DNA from: Polaribacter sp. HaHaR_3_91
Lineage (GTDB): Bacteria > Bacteroidota > Bacteroidia > Flavobacteriales > Flavobacteriaceae
DNA length: 64,000 nt
Direction of reading: 5' to 3'
NCBI RefSeq assembly: GCF_019278525.1
Contig: NZ_CP058986.1
Location: 2,623,501-2,687,500 of the forward strand
Below, in pieces: positions 13,777 through 58,237 of the stretch. Positions within the stretch are counted from its first letter, which is position 1; every line of letters begins with the position of its first letter. The translations under genes and the position numbers were made by a program. The notes beneath the pieces are model-generated. The model made no database searches. It worked only from the letters and a program-made list of their open reading frames with translations, and was not told the origin of the DNA.

Positions 13777-14871
13777 ATGATTACACAAGAACAACTTAAA
13801 GATATTGCCGAAAGAATTGAAAAGTTAAAATCTTATTTAGAGATTGATAAAAAACTGATTGAAATTGCCAATGAAGAAGAGAAAACGGTAGATCCAGATT
13901 TTTGGAACAACCCTAAAGAAGCAGAAGTTTTTATGAAAGAGCTTCGATTAAAGAAAAAGTGGGTAGAAGACTATCATAAATCCATCACTTTAAGTGAAGA
14001 TGTAAATGTCTTATACGAGTTTTACAAAGAAGGTGAAATTGAAGAAGCAGAAGTTGTAGAACAATTTGAAAAAGCAAGTACATTTTTAGAAGATTTAGAG
14101 TTTAAAAACATGTTATCCGACGAAGGAGATGTATTATCTGCTACCATACAAATTAATGCAGGCGCAGGTGGAACAGAAAGTTGCGATTGGGTAGAAATGT
14201 TGTCCAGAATGTATACCATGTGGGCAGAAAAACAAGGTTATAAATTAAAAACACTTAATTACCAAGCAGGTGATGTAGCTGGTATTAAAACCATAACCAT
14301 AGAAGTAGATGGCGATTATGCCTTTGGATGGCTAAAAGGAGAAAATGGCGTGCATCGTTTGGTACGTATTTCACCATTCGATTCTAATGGAAAACGTCAT
14401 ACAACCTTTGGCTCTGTCTATGTTTTTCCTGTTGCCGATGATTCTATAGAAATAGAAATTAATCCGGCAGATATAGAAATTGTAACTGCGCGTTCTAGTG
14501 GTGCTGGCGGACAAAATGTAAACAAAGTAGAAACCAAAGTTCAGTTAACACACAAACCAACCGGAATTCAGATTTCTTGTTCTAACTCACGTTCTCAGCA
14601 CGATAATAGAGCAACAGCATTAAAAATGCTAAAATCTCAATTATATGAAATTGAATTGCAAAAACAACAAGCCACAAGAGACGAGATTGAATCTGGAAAG
14701 CTAAAAACGGAATGGGGAAGCCAAATTAGAAACTATGTAATGCATCCTTATAAATTGGTGAAAGATGTAAGAACTGGTCACGAAACGGGTAATGTAGACA
14801 ATGTAATGAACGGAGATATAAACCCGTTTTTAAAGTCTTATTTAATGTTAAATGGACAAAAAAGCGATTAG
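13777..14871 (+). CDS. prfB: Peptide chain release factor 2 (no programmed frameshift)
   Basis: Recognises UGA and UAA stop codons and triggers peptide release. The SPF discriminator tripeptide is at 199-201, marking RF2 rather than RF1, and the catalytic GGQ motif is at 244-246 ([11 protein letters not shown]). The 364-residue frame is uninterrupted. Where many bacteria have an in-frame UGA after about 25 codons and a +1 autoregulatory shift, this gene reads straight through (KSYLEIDKK; bases 13831-13848 contain no stop or slippery CTTTGA). Confidence 0.96.
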
Positions 14872-30222: not shown

Positions 30223-31590
30223 TTATGCTTTTAGTAAGGTTAGTATTTCTGATAAATCACCATCTGTTTGCTCTCCTGAATTCATATTCTTTAAAGTAAA
30301 AACATCATTTACTACATTAGAAACTACAAATTCTATTTCTCTAGAACTAACGTATTTCCATTGTCGTTTTTGTGCCTTATTACTTTCTGCTAAATCAGGA
30401 TAAAATTCACTTTTTATATTATTTTCTCTTAAAACCTTAATGGCTTTCATTTTTAGAACATTCGTATCAGACTCAAAATTTAAGAAAATAACCTTAGGTT
30501 TTGGTAAGTCTACAGCTTTAAACAAACCTAACTCTTCTAATACTAAATAGATTCTGTCTAATCCAAAAGAAATACCAACTCCAGAAACATCTTTTAAACC
30601 AAAGATTCCTGTTAAATCGTCATATCTTCCACCACCACCAATAGACCCCATTTTTACACCTTTTGGCGCAGCAACTTCAAAAATTGCACCGGTGTAATAA
30701 TTTAATCCTCTTGCTAAAGTAACATCTACTTCTAAAGTTGCTGTTTCTAAACCTAATTCTTCCACAGAATTAATTACAAAACGCAACTCTTCTACTCCAT
30801 TTGTTCCTTCTTCAGAAGTTGACAACATACTTTCTAACGAAGCTAGTTTATCTAAATTAGATCCAGAAAAATCGAACAAAGGTTGTACTTTATCAATGGC
30901 GTCCTCCGTAATTCCTTTAGATAACATCTCTTTAACAACACCGTCTTTACCAATTTTATCTAACTTATCTAAAGCTACTGTAAAATCGATTAATTTATCT
31001 TGTGCACCAATAACTTCTGCGATTCCAGAAAGTATTTTTCTATTATTAATTTTAATATTCGTACCTGCTAAACCAAGTTTACTAAAAACGGTATCATATA
31101 ATTGTACAAATTCTACTTCTTGCCATAAAGATTTACTACCAACAACATCTGCATCACACTGAAAAAACTCTCTAAAACGTCCTTTCTGTGGTCTGTCTGC
31201 TCTCCAAACGGGTTGTACTTGATACCTTTTAAAAGGAAATGTAATATCATTTTGATGTTGTACAACGTAACGTGCAAAGGGCACTGTTAAATCGTAACGT
31301 AATGCTTTTTCTGAAATTTGACTAGTAACTTTTAAGCTGTTTTTTTGTGATAAAAGACCTTCATCGGCTTTCTTTAAAAAGTCTCCAGAATTTAAAATCT
31401 TAAAAATCAAACGATCTCCTTCTTCACCATATTTCCCCATTAAAGTTGATGAATTTTCAAAACTTGGCGTTTCTATAGGTTGAAATCCGAATGTTTCAAA
31501 AGCAGTTTTTATCGTATTCATTATATACGTTCTGTTGGCTACTTCTGTTGGCGAAAAATCTCTAGTTCCTTTTGGAATACTTGGTTTCAT
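30223..31590 (-). CDS. hisS: Histidyl-tRNA synthetase
   Basis: Class II synthetase charging tRNA-His. N-terminal KPSIPKGTRDF is diagnostic; motif 2 is in PVWRADRPQKGRFREFFQCDADVVG (residues near 107-130 region), the HisRS-specific LARGLNYYTGAIFEV lies near 287, and motif 3 is GISFGLDRI. A C-terminal anticodon-binding domain follows. Length 455 is normal. Independent of folE, with a 63-bp gap. Confidence 0.97.
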   Translation of the reverse strand: MKPSIPKGTRDFSPTEVANRTYIMNTIKTAFETFGFQPIETPSFENSSTLMGKYGEEGDRLIFKILNSGDFLKKADEGLLSQKNSLKVTSQISEKALRYDLTVPFARYVVQHQNDITFPFKRYQVQPVWRADRPQKGRFREFFQCDADVVGSKSLWQEVEFVQLYDTVFSKLGLAGTNIKINNRKILSGIAEVIGAQDKLIDFTVALDKLDKIGKDGVVKEMLSKGITEDAIDKVQPLFDFSGSNLDKLASLESMLSTSEEGTNGVEELRFVINSVEELGLETATLEVDVTLARGLNYYTGAIFEVAAPKGVKMGSIGGGGRYDDLTGIFGLKDVSGVGISFGLDRIYLVLEELGLFKAVDLPKPKVIFLNFESDTNVLKMKAIKVLRENNIKSEFYPDLAESNKAQKRQWKYVSSREIEFVVSNVVNDVFTLKNMNSGEQTDGDLSEILTLLKA

Positions 31591-31707: not shown

Positions 31708-32646
31708 TTATAAAATAGAATCAATTTTATTTCTGAATCTTAAAGCGTAAATAGCAGCATTTAACTCAAAGCCTAACAATAAGATAATTGCATTTAGCCA
31801 CACAAATAACATCAAGATTAAAAGCGTACCAATAGAACCGTATAATTGATTGTATTGTGCAAATTTAACTACATAAATACCGAATAAATAAAACGTACAT
31901 AAAGACACAACTGTGGTTAAAATTGCACCTGCAGAAAAGAATTTTGTTTCTTTACCCTGTTTTGTTCCGTACCTAAAAAGCAAAGATACAATAGTAAAAA
32001 TCATTACTAAGAAAACGGCATTTTTACCCAAAAGAAAAAGATCTAAATCACCGGTATCTAACCAACCCGTTTCGTCTATTTTAGATAGTGCTACTTGATA
32101 TAAAATTAAGGTGGTAATGGTAACTATTAAAAAGAATGACATTAATAAAGAAACTCCTAAAGAAACAAAATAGGCTCTAAAAACATTTCTAACATCAGTT
32201 ATATGATATGAATGCTCAAAACCACCAAAGATAGCATTCACACCATTTGTCATTAAAAAGATAGACAATAAAAAACCAAAAGAAAGCAAACCTCCATATT
32301 GATTGTTAATAATATCTTTTAACACAACATCTACAGCTTCAAATGTTTGTGGAGGCAACACCTCCTTTATAAATGAAAATAAGCCTTCTTGAAAACCTTC
32401 TATTGGAATGTATGGAATTAACGTTAAAATAAACAGTAAAAAAGGAAAAACGGCCATAAAAAAACTAAATGCAATTCCACCTGCTCTAGTTGTTAAAGCT
32501 CCTTTTACAATACCAATTATGTACATTTCTATAACATCGTACAAGGACATTCCTTCTAAACCAGGAATTTTTACTCTTTTTCCAAATAGTACCAAGAAAT
32601 TTACAACTGGTATTTTTTCTAATTTCTCTTCTATTTCTTTACTCAT
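31708..32646 (-). CDS. YihY/BrkB-family inner-membrane protein
   Basis: 312 residues with about six hydrophobic helices starting near residue 55. The family hallmark segment RAGGIAFSFFMAVFPFLLFI (56-75) and the YHITDVRNVFRAY loop are clear. The biochemical role of the family is uncertain; the older name ribonuclease BN is a misnomer. Single gene. Confidence 0.88.
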   Translation of the reverse strand: MSKEIEEKLEKIPVVNFLVLFGKRVKIPGLEGMSLYDVIEMYIIGIVKGALTTRAGGIAFSFFMAVFPFLLFILTLIPYIPIEGFQEGLFSFIKEVLPPQTFEAVDVVLKDIINNQYGGLLSFGFLLSIFLMTNGVNAIFGGFEHSYHITDVRNVFRAYFVSLGVSLLMSFFLIVTITTLILYQVALSKIDETGWLDTGDLDLFLLGKNAVFLVMIFTIVSLLFRYGTKQGKETKFFSAGAILTTVVSLCTFYLFGIYVVKFAQYNQLYGSIGTLLILMLFVWLNAIILLLGFELNAAIYALRFRNKIDSIL

Positions 32647-33316: not shown

Positions 33317-33685
33317 TTACTCTTGTTTTGTTAATTTATAGTTTAATTCACTTTTAATTTTATTACCATCAATATCTAGCATTTCAATATAATTGTCTCC
33401 AATTTCATATTTAAAAGGACTCGTTTCCAACTCTAAAATTACTTTTCCGTTTTCAACGGAATAATTTCCTGTTTTCGTAAAAACAGTATCATCACCTTGT
33501 CCCTTATATACACTCTCTAACACAAAAGTTTTATCAGAATTTAAGGTCATTTTATTATCGATTCCCGTACAATTAGCACATGGAAACTCGCCAATATAAA
33601 CACCAGAAACATCTTGTGCTGTGTTATTTTTACATGCTAAAAATAGAATACAAACTACCGCTATAACTTTTATAATATGTTTCAT
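33317..33685 (-). CDS. NlpE N-terminal-domain lipoprotein
   Basis: 122 residues: lipoprotein signal with lipobox Cys18 (LFLAC), then an NlpE/CutF-like small barrel with a CxxC pair in FPCANCTG (C36, C39), DKTFVLESVYKG and GKVILE segments. NlpE-like proteins are linked to copper tolerance and envelope-stress sensing in enterobacteria; here only the N-terminal domain is present. Preceded 8 bp upstream by the M3 peptidase. Confidence 0.82.
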   Translation of the reverse strand: MKHIIKVIAVVCILFLACKNNTAQDVSGVYIGEFPCANCTGIDNKMTLNSDKTFVLESVYKGQGDDTVFTKTGNYSVENGKVILELETSPFKYEIGDNYIEMLDIDGNKIKSELNYKLTKQE

Positions 33686-52608: not shown

Positions 52609-54513
52609 ATGGCAAAAGGAAATATTAATGTATCAGTAGAAAATATTTTTCCACTAATTAAAAAATTCTTGTACTCAGATCACGAAATCTTTTTACGTGA
52701 ATTAATTTCTAACGGAACAGATGCAACTTCTAAACTAAAGCATTTAATTGCTATTGGTGAAGCTAAAACTGAATTAGGTGATGCTAAAATTGAAATCAGC
52801 ATAGATAAAGAGGCTAAGACAATAACTATTAAAGATCAAGGTTTAGGAATGACTGCAGATGAAGTTGAAAAATACATCAACCAAATTGCATTTTCTGGAG
52901 CTGAAGAATTTTTAGACAAATATAAAGACAACGAAGCTGGTATTATTGGTCATTTTGGACTAGGTTTTTACTCTGCTTTTATGGTTGCAGAAAAAGTAGA
53001 ATTAATTACAAAATCTTTTAAAGATGAGCCTGCTGCTCATTGGACTTGTGATGGTTCTCCAGAATTTACACTAGTAGAAAGCGATAAAGCAGACAGAGGA
53101 ACTGAAATTATTTTACATGTTGCAGAAGATTCTTTAGACTTCTTAGAAGAAAGTAAAATTGGAGGTTTATTAAACAAATACAATCGTTTTAACCAAGTGC
53201 CAATTAAATTTGGAACAGAAGAAATTAACGATCCTGAGTTTACACCTGCAACTACAACAGATGCTGATGGGAAAGAAACTACAGAGCCTCATAAAAAAAT
53301 TACAGTTGATAATATCATCAACAACACAGAACCTGCTTGGACAAAAGCGCCTGCAGATTTAAGTGATGAAGATTATGAAAACTTCTACAGAGAATTGTAT
53401 CCAATGCAATTTGAAGAGTCATTATTCCACATTCATTTAAATGTAGATTATCCTTTTAACTTAACAGGTATTTTATTTTTCCCTAAGTTATCTACCTCAA
53501 TGGATATGCAAAAGGACAAAATTCAATTATACCAAAACCAAGTTTTTGTAACGGATAATGTAGAAGGAATTGTTCCTGATTTCTTACAAATGCTAAAAGG
53601 TGTTATCGATTCTCCAGACATTCCATTAAACGTTTCTCGTTCTGGTTTACAGGCAGACGGAGCGGTAAAGAAAATTTCTGGTTACATTACTAAAAAAGTA
53701 GCCGATAAATTATCTTCTATATTCAAAAAAGACAGAGCAGATTTTGAAACAAAATGGAATGATATTAAAGTAATTATTGAGTACGGAATGTTGTCTGAAG
53801 ATAAATTCTTTGACAAAGCGAAGAAATTTGCATTGTACCCAACAGTTGCAGACACATATTTTACGTTTGATGAATTAATTGAAAAAACAAAAGATTCTCA
53901 GACTGATAAAGAAGGAAATCACGTTCTTTTATATACATCAAACAAAGAAGCACAACACAGTTATATTCAAGATGCAACAGCAAAAGGATATGAAGTATTG
54001 TTATTAGATTCTCCTATTATTTCTCATTTAATGCAGAAATTAGAAGGTGGTGATGCTAAAGTAAAATTCTCTAGAGTAGATGCAGATCACGTAGATAATT
54101 TAATTAAGAAAGACGATAACGTAATTTCTAAATTATCTGAAGATGAAATTGCAACTTTAAAACCAATTATTGAAGGTGCCGTAAATTCTAAAACATATAC
54201 GGTTCAATTAGAAGCGATGGATTCTGCTTCTTCTCCGTTTATGATTACAGTGCCAGAATTTATGCGTAGAATGAAAGAAATGCAAGCTTCTGGTGGTGGT
54301 GGAATGATGGGAATGGGTAATTTCCCAGACATGTATAACTTAGTTGTTAATACAAACAGCCCGTTAGTTGCTGATATTTTAAATAATAAAGATGAAGCTG
54401 CTCAGAAAGGTTTAATTTCTCAAGCTTTTGATTTAGCTAAATTATCTCAAAACCTTTTACATGGTGAAGAGTTAACAAACTTTATAAAACGTTCTTACGC
54501 GTTAATCAAGTAA
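52609..54513 (+). CDS. htpG: Hsp90-family chaperone HtpG
   Basis: ATP-dependent chaperone. The GHKL ATPase domain shows FLRELISNGTDATSKLKHL, KDQGLGMTADEVEKYI and IGHFGLGFYSAF; the middle-domain catalytic Arg lies in LNVSRSGLQ. 634 residues, standard. A Gly/Met stretch (SGGGGMMGMG, about 564-573) occurs in the C-terminal dimerisation domain. A palindromic repeat and terminator follow. Confidence 0.96.
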   Translation: MAKGNINVSVENIFPLIKKFLYSDHEIFLRELISNGTDATSKLKHLIAIGEAKTELGDAKIEISIDKEAKTITIKDQGLGMTADEVEKYINQIAFSGAEEFLDKYKDNEAGIIGHFGLGFYSAFMVAEKVELITKSFKDEPAAHWTCDGSPEFTLVESDKADRGTEIILHVAEDSLDFLEESKIGGLLNKYNRFNQVPIKFGTEEINDPEFTPATTTDADGKETTEPHKKITVDNIINNTEPAWTKAPADLSDEDYENFYRELYPMQFEESLFHIHLNVDYPFNLTGILFFPKLSTSMDMQKDKIQLYQNQVFVTDNVEGIVPDFLQMLKGVIDSPDIPLNVSRSGLQADGAVKKISGYITKKVADKLSSIFKKDRADFETKWNDIKVIIEYGMLSEDKFFDKAKKFALYPTVADTYFTFDELIEKTKDSQTDKEGNHVLLYTSNKEAQHSYIQDATAKGYEVLLLDSPIISHLMQKLEGGDAKVKFSRVDADHVDNLIKKDDNVISKLSEDEIATLKPIIEGAVNSKTYTVQLEAMDSASSPFMITVPEFMRRMKEMQASGGGGMMGMGNFPDMYNLVVNTNSPLVADILNNKDEAAQKGLISQAFDLAKLSQNLLHGEELTNFIKRSYALIK

Positions 54514-54698: not shown

Positions 54699-55046
54699 AT
54701 GAAACTCGTACACACAAATACATTACCAGAAATTGGCACAAGTCACGATGAGAATATCATGAAAAAAGTATTTATAGAAAGTGGAGAAATTCCTCAATTA
54801 ATGATGTTTGGTGCTGCCACACTTACTCCTGGACAAGCTGTAGAAACGCATAAACATGATACGATGTACGAAGTTTTTTATATACAATCTGGTAAAGCAG
54901 AATTTATTGTGAATGATAAAAAAATGATTGTAGTTCCCGGAGATTGTATCACAATTGAGCAAGGAGAATTACACTCAATGAACAATCCATTTTCAGAAAA
55001 CGTAACTTGGGTTTATTTTGGAATTGCAACAGACATACAAGACTAA
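54699..55046 (+). CDS. Small cupin-domain protein
   Basis: 115 residues forming one cupin barrel: motif 1 ETHKHDTMYEVFYIQSGKAEF with metal-ligand His/His/Glu, motif 2 VVPGDCITIEQGELHSMNN. Function cannot be assigned; possible metal-dependent isomerase, dioxygenase or sensor. Own transcript, with a hairpin terminator about 150 bp downstream. Confidence 0.85.
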   Translation: MKLVHTNTLPEIGTSHDENIMKKVFIESGEIPQLMMFGAATLTPGQAVETHKHDTMYEVFYIQSGKAEFIVNDKKMIVVPGDCITIEQGELHSMNNPFSENVTWVYFGIATDIQD

Positions 55047-55224: not shown

Positions 55225-55300
55225 TTTGATTTTGTCAGGAAAAAAGGGTAAATTCGTTTAACTTCTGATAAAATGAATTGAAACTTATTTTATTATTGGA

Positions 55301-55315
55301 GTTGTGGGTAATACT
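55301..55315. repeat. Left boundary repeat of the cassette-like unit
   Basis: GTTGTGGGTAATACT; its first ten bases recur as an exact inverted copy at 56093-56102, and 13 of 15 bases match over the extended repeat. Confidence 0.65.
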
Positions 55316-55344
55316 GAAATACCATTGTATAAATTGATATTTTA

Positions 55345-56073
55345 TTGAAAAAGAAAAACTATATAGGAAATGCTTTTGAAGAATTTTCACAAAGTCTAAG
55401 AGTACTTTTAGAGGCAGACTATTATGCACGAGAATTAATATTTGTGGATAGATCTGAGGCAATCGGAAATATTGAAACAGCTTTGACTAATGTATTAAAC
55501 TCATTTCATAGCCTTTATGATGCAATTAATAAACAATTGCAAGAGAAACCTATAGATTGGTATAGGACTGGTTCTTTAGCTTTTATTCTTGCGATACGTA
55601 ATGCTAGACATCATAACCATGCTAATAGAATTAGGACTTTATATACTTACCATCTTCAAGAGGCAAAGAATTTTCAAACGATGGAACAATGTGTATTGAT
55701 TGACTTCACTTCTCCTGAAGAAGAAGCAGATACTTTTGATGTTTATGTATCATGGGAAGATATTGGAGAATTGATTTCTATGCCAAAAAAAATAAGCAAG
55801 ATTACAGATGATACATCTTCTGAAATTATGAGCTATCTAAATTCTGAAAAATTTCCCGAATATACCAGAATGTATAATTTAAAAGAGGGAAAAGTGTTTT
55901 TGAATATTGTTCCATTAATAGTTAATGCTGCAATTGCAATTGTTCCTTTAATAAAAGATTATTGCAATTCTAATACAACCGAATCTAATACTTTTAAAGA
56001 ACTGTTCTCAAATATAAAACCTGCAGATACAATAAATCATGATGTTAATTGTGGACCTTTTGTTTTACCATAA
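55345..56073 (+). CDS. Unknown protein with a HEPN-like RNxxxH motif
   Basis: 242 residues, start TTG at 55345 (no ATG fits; an in-frame stop lies at 55330). Mostly helical N-terminal half with ILAIRNARHHNHA; R85-x4-H90 fits the Rx4-6H motif of HEPN RNases. A hydrophobic segment near 192-208 (IVPLIVNAAIAIVPLI) may insert in the membrane. I do not recognise the family. It lies between inverted GTTGTGGGTA repeats and is flanked by ~300 and ~180 bp of non-coding DNA, unlike the compact neighbours, which suggests acquisition. Confidence 0.65.
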   Translation: MKKKNYIGNAFEEFSQSLRVLLEADYYARELIFVDRSEAIGNIETALTNVLNSFHSLYDAINKQLQEKPIDWYRTGSLAFILAIRNARHHNHANRIRTLYTYHLQEAKNFQTMEQCVLIDFTSPEEEADTFDVYVSWEDIGELISMPKKISKITDDTSSEIMSYLNSEKFPEYTRMYNLKEGKVFLNIVPLIVNAAIAIVPLIKDYCNSNTTESNTFKELFSNIKPADTINHDVNCGPFVLP

Positions 56074-56087
56074 ATAATAGATAAAAA

Positions 56088-56222
56088 AATACTACCCACA
56101 ACAATGTATAAAAATAATAGCAGAATCAGTGATGAATTCAAGGGGTGTAGACCACTTCAACTTTCTTGTAACTTGACAATAAAGTGCCAGTAGTCGGCTA
56201 CTATTCTTATACTGAACGTTAA
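56088..56222. repeat. Right boundary repeat and structured module of the cassette-like unit
   Basis: Begins with TACCCACAAC (56093-56102), the inverted copy of the left boundary. It continues with CACTT (56153-56157)/AAGTG (56182-56186) pairing around TTGTAACTTGACAA, then the hairpin AGTAG-TCGG-CTACT (56189-56202), and ends ACTGAACGTTAAAC. The layout resembles a recombination-site-like or folded DNA module. Confidence 0.5.
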
Positions 56223-56255
56223 ACGAACCACTTCAATTTCTTCAAAGAAAATAAA

Positions 56256-56765
56256 ATGAAAAACTACACATTACTAATAGTACTTAACTTACTGCTTTTT
56301 AATTGTACAGATAAAAAAGAAGTAAGCTCTGTAGATTTTAAAAATTGGTCTAAAAGACACTTAGCAATCAACACGAAAGATTCTTTAGAGTACGGTAAAT
56401 CTTATCTTTCTGTGTACTCACAAATTTACAGTGTATCAGAACATAAAACCCATAGTTTAACTGCTATGGTTAGTTTGCGGAATACAAGTGACAAAGACAC
56501 TATCTATTTGTTAAAAGCAGAATATTACGATACAAAAGGAAAACCTGTACGTTCTTATTTTGATAAAACAATCTTTTTAGCTCCTTTAGAAACTACAGAA
56601 ATTATCATTGATGAAGTTGAAAAAAATGGAGAAACGGGTTCTAATTTTATTTTCGAATGGAAAATACCAAAAGATTGCCCAGAACCTTTATTTGAAGGAA
56701 TCATGAATTCTACCAAAGGTCAACAAGGATTGTCTTTTACAACACAGTCTAGAAGAATTAAATAA
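56256..56765 (+). CDS. DUF3124 lipoprotein
   Basis: 169 residues with a lipoprotein signal (Cys17 in LLLFNCTD) and a DUF3124 beta-sandwich-like domain (TAMVSLRNTSDKDTIYLLKA, KTIFLAPLETTEIII, GSNFIFEWK). Function unknown. It precedes the YpfJ-like protease gene by 38 bp on the same strand. Confidence 0.75.
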   Translation: MKNYTLLIVLNLLLFNCTDKKEVSSVDFKNWSKRHLAINTKDSLEYGKSYLSVYSQIYSVSEHKTHSLTAMVSLRNTSDKDTIYLLKAEYYDTKGKPVRSYFDKTIFLAPLETTEIIIDEVEKNGETGSNFIFEWKIPKDCPEPLFEGIMNSTKGQQGLSFTTQSRRIK

Positions 56766-56803: not shown

Positions 56804-57700
56804 ATGAAGTGGAAAGGAAATAGAAAAAGTTCTAATGTAGAAGACAGAAGAGGCGCCTCTTCTGGCGGGAGTTCTGGTGGTTTAGGTAGTTTAAGTCCTA
56901 TGATAATTGGACTTTTATTAAAATTAGTGACTTCTAAAAAAGGATTAATTATTGTTGGTATTGTATTAGCTGTCATGTATTTTACAGGCAATAATCCCTT
57001 AAACTTTATTACAGGAAATACTGGGAATCAAATAGAATCTTCAACTACTTACAAAGGAACAGCTAAAGAAAATGAGTTGGCAGAATTTAGCAACCAAGTT
57101 TTAAGAAGTACAGAAGATGTTTGGAACCAAATTATACAAGATTATAGAGAACCTACTTTAGTTCTTTTTACAGGCTCTGTGAATTCTGCTTGCGGAAGTG
57201 CTTCTAGCGCAACCGGTCCTTTCTATTGTCCTGGTGATGAAAAACTATACATAGATTTAAGTTTTTTTGAAGAAATGGAAAGAAACTTAAATGCTCCTGG
57301 AGATTTTGCACAAGCGTATGTAATTGCACATGAAGTTGGTCATCACATTCAAACCATAACAGGTATCAGTAAAAAAGTACAAGCTTTACGAGGTAAGGTG
57401 AGTCAAACAGAATACAACAAATACTCTGTTATGTTAGAATTACAAGCAGATTTTTACGCTGGTGTTTGGGCGCATCATTCTCAAAAAGATAATTTAATTT
57501 TAGATGACAATGATTTAGAAGAAGCATTAAACGCTGCAAATGCTATTGGAGACGATCGTTTACAAAAACAATCTACAGGACGCGTAGTTCCAGACTCTTT
57601 TACCCACGGAACTTCTGCGCAAAGAATGCGTTGGTTTAAAAAAGGTTTTGATACTGGCGATGTAAACCAAGGTGATACTTTTAGTGCAAGTTCTTTATAA
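56804..57700 (+). CDS. Neutral zinc metallopeptidase family protein (YpfJ-like)
   Basis: 298 residues: Arg/Ser/Gly-rich N-terminus (MKWKGNRKSSNVEDRRGAS), one transmembrane helix about 45-64, then the zinc domain with HEVGHH (H176, E177, H180) and a downstream ELQADFYAGVWAH that supplies the third ligand. Probably anchored in the inner membrane with the catalytic part in the periplasm. Substrate unknown. Confidence 0.9.
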   Translation: MKWKGNRKSSNVEDRRGASSGGSSGGLGSLSPMIIGLLLKLVTSKKGLIIVGIVLAVMYFTGNNPLNFITGNTGNQIESSTTYKGTAKENELAEFSNQVLRSTEDVWNQIIQDYREPTLVLFTGSVNSACGSASSATGPFYCPGDEKLYIDLSFFEEMERNLNAPGDFAQAYVIAHEVGHHIQTITGISKKVQALRGKVSQTEYNKYSVMLELQADFYAGVWAHHSQKDNLILDDNDLEEALNAANAIGDDRLQKQSTGRVVPDSFTHGTSAQRMRWFKKGFDTGDVNQGDTFSASSL

Positions 57701-57721
57701 CTTTTAATTTATTACTCCTAT

Positions 57722-58237
57722 ATGATTTCAATTAAAAAAGCAGCTTTAGAAGATGTTAAAGCATTAGCTAAAGTTGGTGAAAAAGCATTTTTAGTTCCAC
57801 ATAAAGAAGCCATTTCTAAGGAAATGATGGATGCTTATATTAGTACTAGTTTTAATGAGCAAAACTTAATTGAAGAGATAACCAATAAGAAGTTTCAATA
57901 TAATTTAATTTTTAAAGGTGATGTTTTAGCTGGTTATTCTAAGATTATTATCAATTACAAAAACGAAAACATAAAGGAAACCAATGTTACAAAAATGGAA
58001 CGTTTGTACTTATTGGAAGAGTTTTATGGAGCAGGTTTAGGTAAACAATTATTTACACACAATTTAGAGTTAGCCAAACAACAAAATCAAAAAGGTATTT
58101 GGTTGTATGTATGGGTAAAAAACTACAAAGCAATCGATTTTTACAAAAAAGCAGGCTTTAAAAAAATAGCAGATTATGATTTTCCTGTTTCTAAAACAGA
58201 AACGAGACCTAATGATGTTTTTTATTTAGAGTTTTAA
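57722..58237 (+). CDS. GNAT-family N-acetyltransferase
   Basis: 171 residues. The acetyl-CoA binding motif A is LYLLEEFYGAGLGKQLFTHNL, followed by GIWLYVWVKNYKAIDFYKKAGF. Similar to spermine/spermidine- or ribosomal-protein-type acetyltransferases; substrate not predictable. 21 bp after the protease gene. Confidence 0.88.
   Translation: MISIKKAALEDVKALAKVGEKAFLVPHKEAISKEMMDAYISTSFNEQNLIEEITNKKFQYNLIFKGDVLAGYSKIIINYKNENIKETNVTKMERLYLLEEFYGAGLGKQLFTHNLELAKQQNQKGIWLYVWVKNYKAIDFYKKAGFKKIADYDFPVSKTETRPNDVFYLEF

Follow-up and report, generated by a model that had tools for sequence, protein, structure and literature searches.

A solitary gene cassette of Polaribacter as the probable occupant of a dedicated, promoter-linked landing site in an integron-like system

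Near the 3' end of a 64,000-bp stretch of the Polaribacter sp. HaHaR_3_91 genome (contig NZ_CP058986.1, positions 2,623,501 to 2,687,500; hereafter the window), a single gene stands between two short inverted sequences and ahead of a folded module, raising the question of what kind of element this is, where its borders lie and how it came to sit between ordinary genes. A sequence-only reading had suggested a mobile system of cassettes independent of classical integrons, a proposal that comparison with other genomes supports, with corrections to borders and structure. The inverted pair is present and exact, GTTGTGGGTA at 55301-55310 (+ strand) being followed by its inverted copy TACCCACAAC at 56093-56102, and is weak by frequency (allowing up to one mismatch, five matches in the window against 2.09 expected, with five or more in 9 of 100 shuffles). 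The bracketed gene (55345..56073, + strand) encodes 242 amino acids from a TTG start and matches no Pfam family above cut-off. Among the best 120 of its 301 homologues, many are 242-245 amino acids long and most 49-64% identical, and they come from several phyla, reaching Idiomarina, Dehalococcoidia and Phycisphaerales, a wide taxonomic spread that would fit cassette genes; a scan of genome contigs with the gene as query gave 24 stretches, none of which was confirmed. Outside the unit lie a cupin gene upstream (54699..55046, + strand, PF07883) and a DUF3124 gene directly 3' (56256..56765, + strand, PF11322).

Two cuts of the form G↓TT (the arrow marking the cut) would delimit an inserted cassette of 917 bp at 55302..56218 on the + strand, with the 5' cut at 55301/55302 and the right border at 56218/56219, the end at 56222 given by the sequence-only reading lying 4 bp too far. 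This right border coincides with the start of flank homology in two relatives (G059 and G060), and the same border rule applies at orthologous empty and filled sites elsewhere. The folded module, which had been placed after the cassette, is instead its 3' recombination site, an attC-like element at 56093..56218 (+ strand) made up of R'' (TACCCACAAC, 56093-56102), L'' (56106-56121), L' (56197-56212) and a final C-G at 56217-56218. The short elements noticed in it earlier (CACTT/AAGTG, AGTAG/CTACT and AACGTTAAAC) are indeed in the sequence, but comparison supports a different structure, in which 56106-56121 pairs with 56197-56212 on the bottom strand. The module scores 86.8 bits (E 1.1e-12) against R1, a model resting on 67 modules of which it is itself one, and folds, when taken alone, modestly better than shuffled sequences (z -1.87); an Rfam search returned four weak matches (E 0.29 or worse), none of them on the module. 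At its 5' start the cassette agrees with its own R'' in 7 of 7 nucleotides after GTT. An insertion sequence or MITE was considered and rejected: the window cassette has no gene recognised as transposase-like, its borders show no target duplication, and both inverted pairs, that of cassette start and R'' and that of the landing-site arms described below, are explained by attC logic.

Far from being unique to its site, the module recurs under R1 in 57 of 58 genomes of the genus (the window's own included, up to 61 candidates being scored per genome) and in 93 of 247 genomes sampled over the phylum, in keeping with the proposed mobile system. With the window module alone as query, BLAST found eight places in its own genome (E <= 0.01), hits in 26 of the 59 genomes, its own among them, and hits on three plasmids of Persicobacter (class Cytophagia); phage records gave none. 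The own genome holds 65 R1 places, mostly clustered, the window module being among the few solitary ones, and module runs of about 100 kb occur in genomes G013 and G075. In the alignment of 67 modules, an outer stem of 15 pairs shows compensatory changes at 12 pairs and G-U at two positions (63/67 and 65/67 modules), the compensatory changes being partly so by construction because the finders and R1 require stem pairing; the early finder, on which this alignment (A1, 67 of 74 representatives) and R1 rest, accepted paired stems only, counting A.C as a pair and G.T not. By eye, the same stems are visible in the modules that BLAST alone had brought up first. The strand test was repeated with a finder giving A.C and G.T equal scores, which detected 332 modules in array regions (chosen since modules had already been seen there) against 11 in the reversed sequence, an excess beyond chance; among the wobble-type stem pairs of these modules, A.C outnumbers G.T by 1045 to 17 on the top strand, and it is because the G.T pairs thus fall on the bottom strand that bottom-strand use is suggested, the cassette sites presumably folding there as R''-L''-L'-R' hairpins.

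The inverted repeat that first drew attention to the unit would follow from how such a site is completed in a circular cassette. Of 287 consecutive module pairs, 241 show a perfect match between the six nucleotides that follow GTT where the cassette begins and the reverse complement of its own R''; the single positions agree in 258-265 of 287 (0.33-0.54 in random pairs), whereas the R' following the module agrees with the cassette start at positions 1-6 in only 106-176 of 287. At position 8, the cassette start agrees with R'' in 2 of 287; nearly all modules have A at the start, where R'' would require G in most of the rows inspected, which is again a G.T pair on the bottom strand. The comparison of the unit's ends with integron core sites holds in kind; in sequence, GTTRRRY is found in 22 of 332 R' boxes and RYYYAAC in 23 of 332 R'' boxes. 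Judged by this anatomy, the window unit is one cassette of what appears to be an integron-like system. From the predicted cuts, the junction of its excised circle would read ..TGAACG↓TTGTGGGTAAT.. and the restored empty site TTATTGGAG↓TTAAACGAA.

No integrase had been seen in the window, and one lies outside it: an intact tyrosine recombinase of 371 aa about 300 kb away (G000:C1:2980378-2981493) heads a cassette array in the same genome. A second, frameshift-split copy (L070:7282-8399, G000:C1: about 3037282-3038399) heads another array, both copies being preceded by a second recombinase gene, of 489 aa. Of the 58 genus genomes, 26 have integrase homologues at E <= 1e-70, and 57 have modules. 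The coupling of integrase and modules is seen in a set of named genomes (Polaribacter, Cellulophaga, Tenacibaculum, Muricauda, Winogradskyella and others), where 60 of 62 loci were examined, two partial matches having been dropped: 75 modules lie in 226,514 bp downstream of the integrase against one in 441,717 bp upstream, and the opposite strand downstream has none. Modules lie downstream in 32 of the 60 loci, and among the 37 loci with at least 1500 bp of downstream sequence, 28 have modules and nine have none. The first cassette also begins at a set distance. In the other set, of 58 rows, a module lies downstream in 24 (21 distinct loci) and every first-cassette start matches 6 of 6 nucleotides; from integrase stop to first cassette, the distance over the distinct loci falls into two types, 33 bp in seven and 81-130 bp in 11, with 42 bp in one and exceptions at 684 and 1769 bp. 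The named genomes gave a first cassette start in 25 of 32 loci, 101-141 bp from the integrase stop in 19 of these 25. Since the sequence ahead of the first-cassette cut is similar in most cases (..CATATAAACAAG↓TT, ..CATATAACCAG↓TT), a site resembling attI adjoins the integrase gene.

The integrase itself differs from canonical IntI, whose additional (patch) domain was not found in it. The spacing from GLR to HxLRH is 90-92 in all 53 proteins extracted from the 58 integrase loci, compared with 133 in 14 and 105 in two of 16 canonical IntI and 98 in XerD, and the alignment with IntI4 (2a3v) falls into two pieces around a gap. Scores against the integron integrase models TIGR02249 (192 bits, cut-off 265) and NF040815 (208 bits, cut-off 220) stay below cut-off, and the closest solved structures by sequence are XerA-like (5hxy and 4a8e, 123 bits each), followed by IntI4 2a3v (110 bits) and XerD (80 bits). 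A quick tree was built from 74 rows, without bootstrap, and read as unrooted; of two Xer rows only one was kept, the other having too few columns. In it the 19 canonical IntI fall into a single clade (SH-aLRT 100), and 51 patchless rows stand apart from them with two changes. Plasmids of Acinetobacter and Aeromonas carry relatives of the patchless integrase, 53-59% identical over 50-61% of its length.

The system thus works like an integron and fails two of its defining features, because the integrase lacks the IntI patch and the R boxes are mostly not GTTRRRY. It shares with integrons the arrays of mostly one-gene cassettes in one orientation, a 3' hairpin site with bottom-strand signature, R''/R' boxes completed only in the circle, an integrase with an adjacent insertion site, and a probable crossover at G↓TT. 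It differs in the missing IntI-specific insert, in cassette-specific arms of about 9-10 nt, in the additional promoter-coupled landing sites scattered through the genome, and in an integrase gene that runs in the direction of the array in Polaribacter and many relatives. Both layouts occur: G132:C4, G116:C33, G124:C44, G252:C17, G236:C35 and G259:C13 have that of classical integrons, with the integrase directed away from the modules, and in G275, G195, G303 and G211 it has the same direction as the array. XerA and XerD resemble it as the best solved-structure relatives and in having no patch; unlike them, it heads cassette arrays with an attI-like site, and the Polaribacter query has about 100 residues ahead of the part aligned to the structures. 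The window cassette taken alone would look like a CALIN, a lone attC without a neighbouring integrase, whereas here the same genome encodes an integrase at another place and the target is itself a specialised site. According to an excerpt of PMC9668308, the additional domain is kept in archaeal IntI. A search of one limited collection of papers gave, among the matches listed, no description of a system of slots and a patchless recombinase.

Over the 247 phylum genomes, the integrase (E <= 1e-55) is present in 76 and accompanies R1 modules in 50 (odds ratio 5.7, Fisher p 2e-9, uncorrected for relatedness), leaving 43 of 93 module genomes with no integrase match and 26 of 76 integrase genomes with no R1 match. 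Canonical IntI exceeds its cut-off in 70 of 247. At E <= 1e-60, TIGR02249 matches 71 genomes, one of the same class and 70 of the same phylum, and none among the own genome, two other same-genus genomes sampled and the 17 same-family genomes listed. Canonical IntI, nearly all of it outside the own class, seems commoner in the phylum than the literature reports as far as excerpts go, that of PMC9024848 giving nothing for Bacteroidetes beyond In0 and, after it, a single complete integron from Salinibacter ruber.

What places a cassette so far from any array is indicated by the sequence on either side of it, which the sequence-only reading had overlooked. The upstream half of a target hairpin (55253..55301, + strand) begins with an R''-like arm, TTCGTTTAAC at 55253-55262, continues with the stem TGATAAAAT/ATTTTATTA and ends in ..GGAG↓, and its partner, the right arm R' (GTTAAACGAA, 56218..56227, + strand), lies beyond the cassette; joined, the two flanks fold into a hairpin. 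Overlapping the left arm is a promoter-like element at 55225..55256 (+ strand), with TTTG at 55225-55228, a spacer of 20 nt and TAAATTCG at 55249-55256. Its promoter function is suggested by the Bacteroidota promoter consensus, and by position the DUF3124 gene would share this promoter. Two solitary cassettes at unrelated places (L258 and L266) have flanks in common with the window cassette, TTTG-N20-TAA[AC]TTCG, and in 20 aligned landing sites TTG and TA..TTCG are kept at fixed spacing with single exceptions. The arm of the landing site, or slot, covaries with the right side of the cassette (TTCGTTTAAC/GTTAAACGAA, TTCGTTAAC/GTTAACGAA, TTCGCTAAC/GTTAGCGAA), and four sites, two whose partner arms lie close together and two after joining, fold into hairpins of the R-spacer-L-loop kind, L293 being less clean.

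Such slots also exist in many copies. The left-half pattern occurs 21 times, in 12 of the 58 genus genomes, with no match in a backwards control, and R2, built on sequence alone from 20 left halves, has matches in 49 of the 199 family genomes, with 10 in the own genome and up to at least 22 in others; given the covarying arms, this pattern and these R2 matches, the slot was no longer read as a GTT site hit by chance. Three landing sites in one genome (G035; L290, L291) have right flanks 98.7-99.6% identical over 453-561 bp, as if the slot had been copied. At L304 (G026:C15), the partner arm lies only 206 bp from the left arm, and the insert of about 160 bp is too short for a normal gene. The genes flanking the window site at 52609-54513 and 56804-58237, together with those at L295, L296 and L302, are presumably hsp90-, zinc metallopeptidase- and GNAT-like; the region that they frame has slots in different gaps in G000, G001, G021 and G004.

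Occupancy was compared over 40 sites picked by pattern and best score, not at random: 20 of the 21 genus sites (the G060 copy of the window site being treated separately) and 20 family-sample sites from the other 29 of the 30 best loci (nine left out; one, G020, is of the same genus). An exact partner arm lies within 6 kb at 28 of 40 sites (0.99 expected with shuffled arms), and follows a C at 27 (0.14 expected). Filled slots number 26, each with an insert that ends at an exact partner arm after a C. Five are empty or nearly so, with exact arms at L302 and L353 and one changed base at L293, L339 and L343; the remaining nine (L292, L294, L300, L305, L342, the truncated L350, L351, L354 and L355) were assigned to neither class. 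In most of the 20 genus sites the insert begins 47-50 nt after TTCG. Of the 26 filled sites, 14 (nine genus, five family) have a finder-recognised module whose end coincides with the partner arm. In the other 12 the attC has diverged or decayed or, at L344, cannot be recognised, so that many of the slots may be old.

Orthologous slots are found both empty and refilled, their borders held in common, and these include the empty-site variants that the idea of a mobile cassette calls for. At the window site itself, the insert of G059 carries a NACHT-SNaCT5 gene and an attC that has decayed (R1 50 bits), G060 has a third insert and G062 has none ahead of the DUF3124 gene. The empty L293 (G021) and the filled L289 (G035, 1236-bp insert) share a left flank 89% identical over 1499 bp and a right flank homologous from base 1 (89% over 173 bp), differing again beyond base 172. 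G001 and G021 have a slot in common (left 97.5%, right 84.6%) with inserts that do not match each other, as have G000 and G075 (left 81%, right 83%), whose inserts are alike only in a 44-bp piece; the pairs with different cassettes in the same slot are L295/L296 and L258/L301. One slot, L290, holds two cassettes. Among the sequences compared, arrays contain matches to attC pieces from slot inserts (up to 89%, L200) and none to the genes of these inserts, bar one remote protein match (25%, L120).

With good confidence, these features taken together point to the window cassette being a member of an integron-like system, seated in a dedicated chromosomal slot outside the arrays and presumably put there by a patchless recombinase. 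In the proposed mechanism, the slot combines a promoter-like element with a short hairpin of attC type, which is formed by the element's start region and built of R'' arm, small loop, L stem and R' arm, with the crossover at ..AG↓TT.. The tyrosine recombinase coded at the head of an array elsewhere in the genome would act on slots in trans; a cassette, travelling as a circle, would present its bottom-strand hairpin and recombine with the slot at G↓TT, ending in one orientation between the promoter, which would drive it, and the downstream gene. The recombination itself we infer from sequence borders. The wider picture, somewhat less secure and still the probable one, is of a distributed integron of the Flavobacteriaceae, in which a patchless recombinase with storage arrays serves many scattered, promoter-coupled slots, each usually holding and expressing one exchangeable cassette.

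The same slots might be leftovers of former integrons, each an old attI or attC that has retained one or two cassettes and has no dedicated role. The decayed or missing attCs of some slots, the two cassettes at L290 and a CATAT..AG↓TT-like half site common to slot and attI suit such an origin. Relics would not, however, be expected to have promoter-like element, arm and core in common over 20 aligned sites, to reach at least 22 matches in a genome or to retain exactly matched arms when empty, as L302 and L353 do, and R2 applied to 16 array loci gave one weak match (L120, E 1.5e-4), the rest having E 0.017 or worse; this origin is unlikely. Chance insertion by a canonical IntI, as at the attG sites of E. 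coli, is more unlikely still. Insertion of cassettes outside arrays has been published (excerpts of PMC12901181 and PMC12444791), which is the likeness to the present case, off-target sites of canonical IntI are described in excerpts of PMC10127599 and PMC8876359, and canonical IntI is common enough in the phylum, as counted above. attG sites are, as far as these excerpts describe them, divergent in sequence and structure and spread over many loci (PMC12444791), in contrast to one conserved, structured, promoter-linked family that is re-used, and the own genome and its sampled relatives have no TIGR02249 match at the E value given above; the slots were accordingly not classed as attG.

That the slot is simply a regulatory leader hairpin of ordinary promoters, the genes having come by homologous recombination or transposition rather than by a cassette recombinase, deserves the least credence of all. 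The slot does lie at the presumed transcription start with its arm and core conserved, and its flanks are homologous across species, all of which a leader would explain. A leader would not explain why inserts start at one position and end at the partner arm, which stands after a C, as in attC, in every filled site, why an array-type module lies at that arm in 14 of them, or why the window cassette has neither a recognised transposase-like gene nor a target duplication. The dedicated slot served by a patchless recombinase remains the preferred reading.

Expression from the slot promoter is likely for some inserts because the first ORF begins 19-21 nt after the cut in five of the 12 inserts listed; it begins later in the others. 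In classical arrays, the cassettes nearest the promoter are expressed best. With one exchangeable cassette per promoter-coupled slot, many cassettes could be expressed at once, each from first position, and scattered promoter-linked slots would thereby let a genome express many captured genes together, changing what an integron is capable of. Among ten slot proteins scanned, L289 encodes an AbiTii-SEFIR/TIR, L298 a DUF4365 and L076 a NACHT protein, most others having no clear family; because of this cargo, the slot system may influence how phage-defence genes turn over in marine Bacteroidota. The system is widespread, and most of it would probably escape searches that rely on the IntI patch or on GTTRRRY; an old question, whether the IntI patch is needed for recombination of folded attCs, becomes testable.

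Phages may move such cassettes, since the lytic Polaribacter phage P12002L (L136) carries both module-family matches (14503-14624, 31118-31313 and 33377-33496) and shorter look-alikes (near 32224, 38036 and 38880). R1 finds two places on this phage at E <= 2.4e-5, which are not equated with its experimentally tested attCs; an excerpt of PMC9892861 describes two predicted attCs of P12002L, of which one recombined with attI1 by IntI1. Matches and look-alikes on the phage lie around DNA methyltransferase genes.
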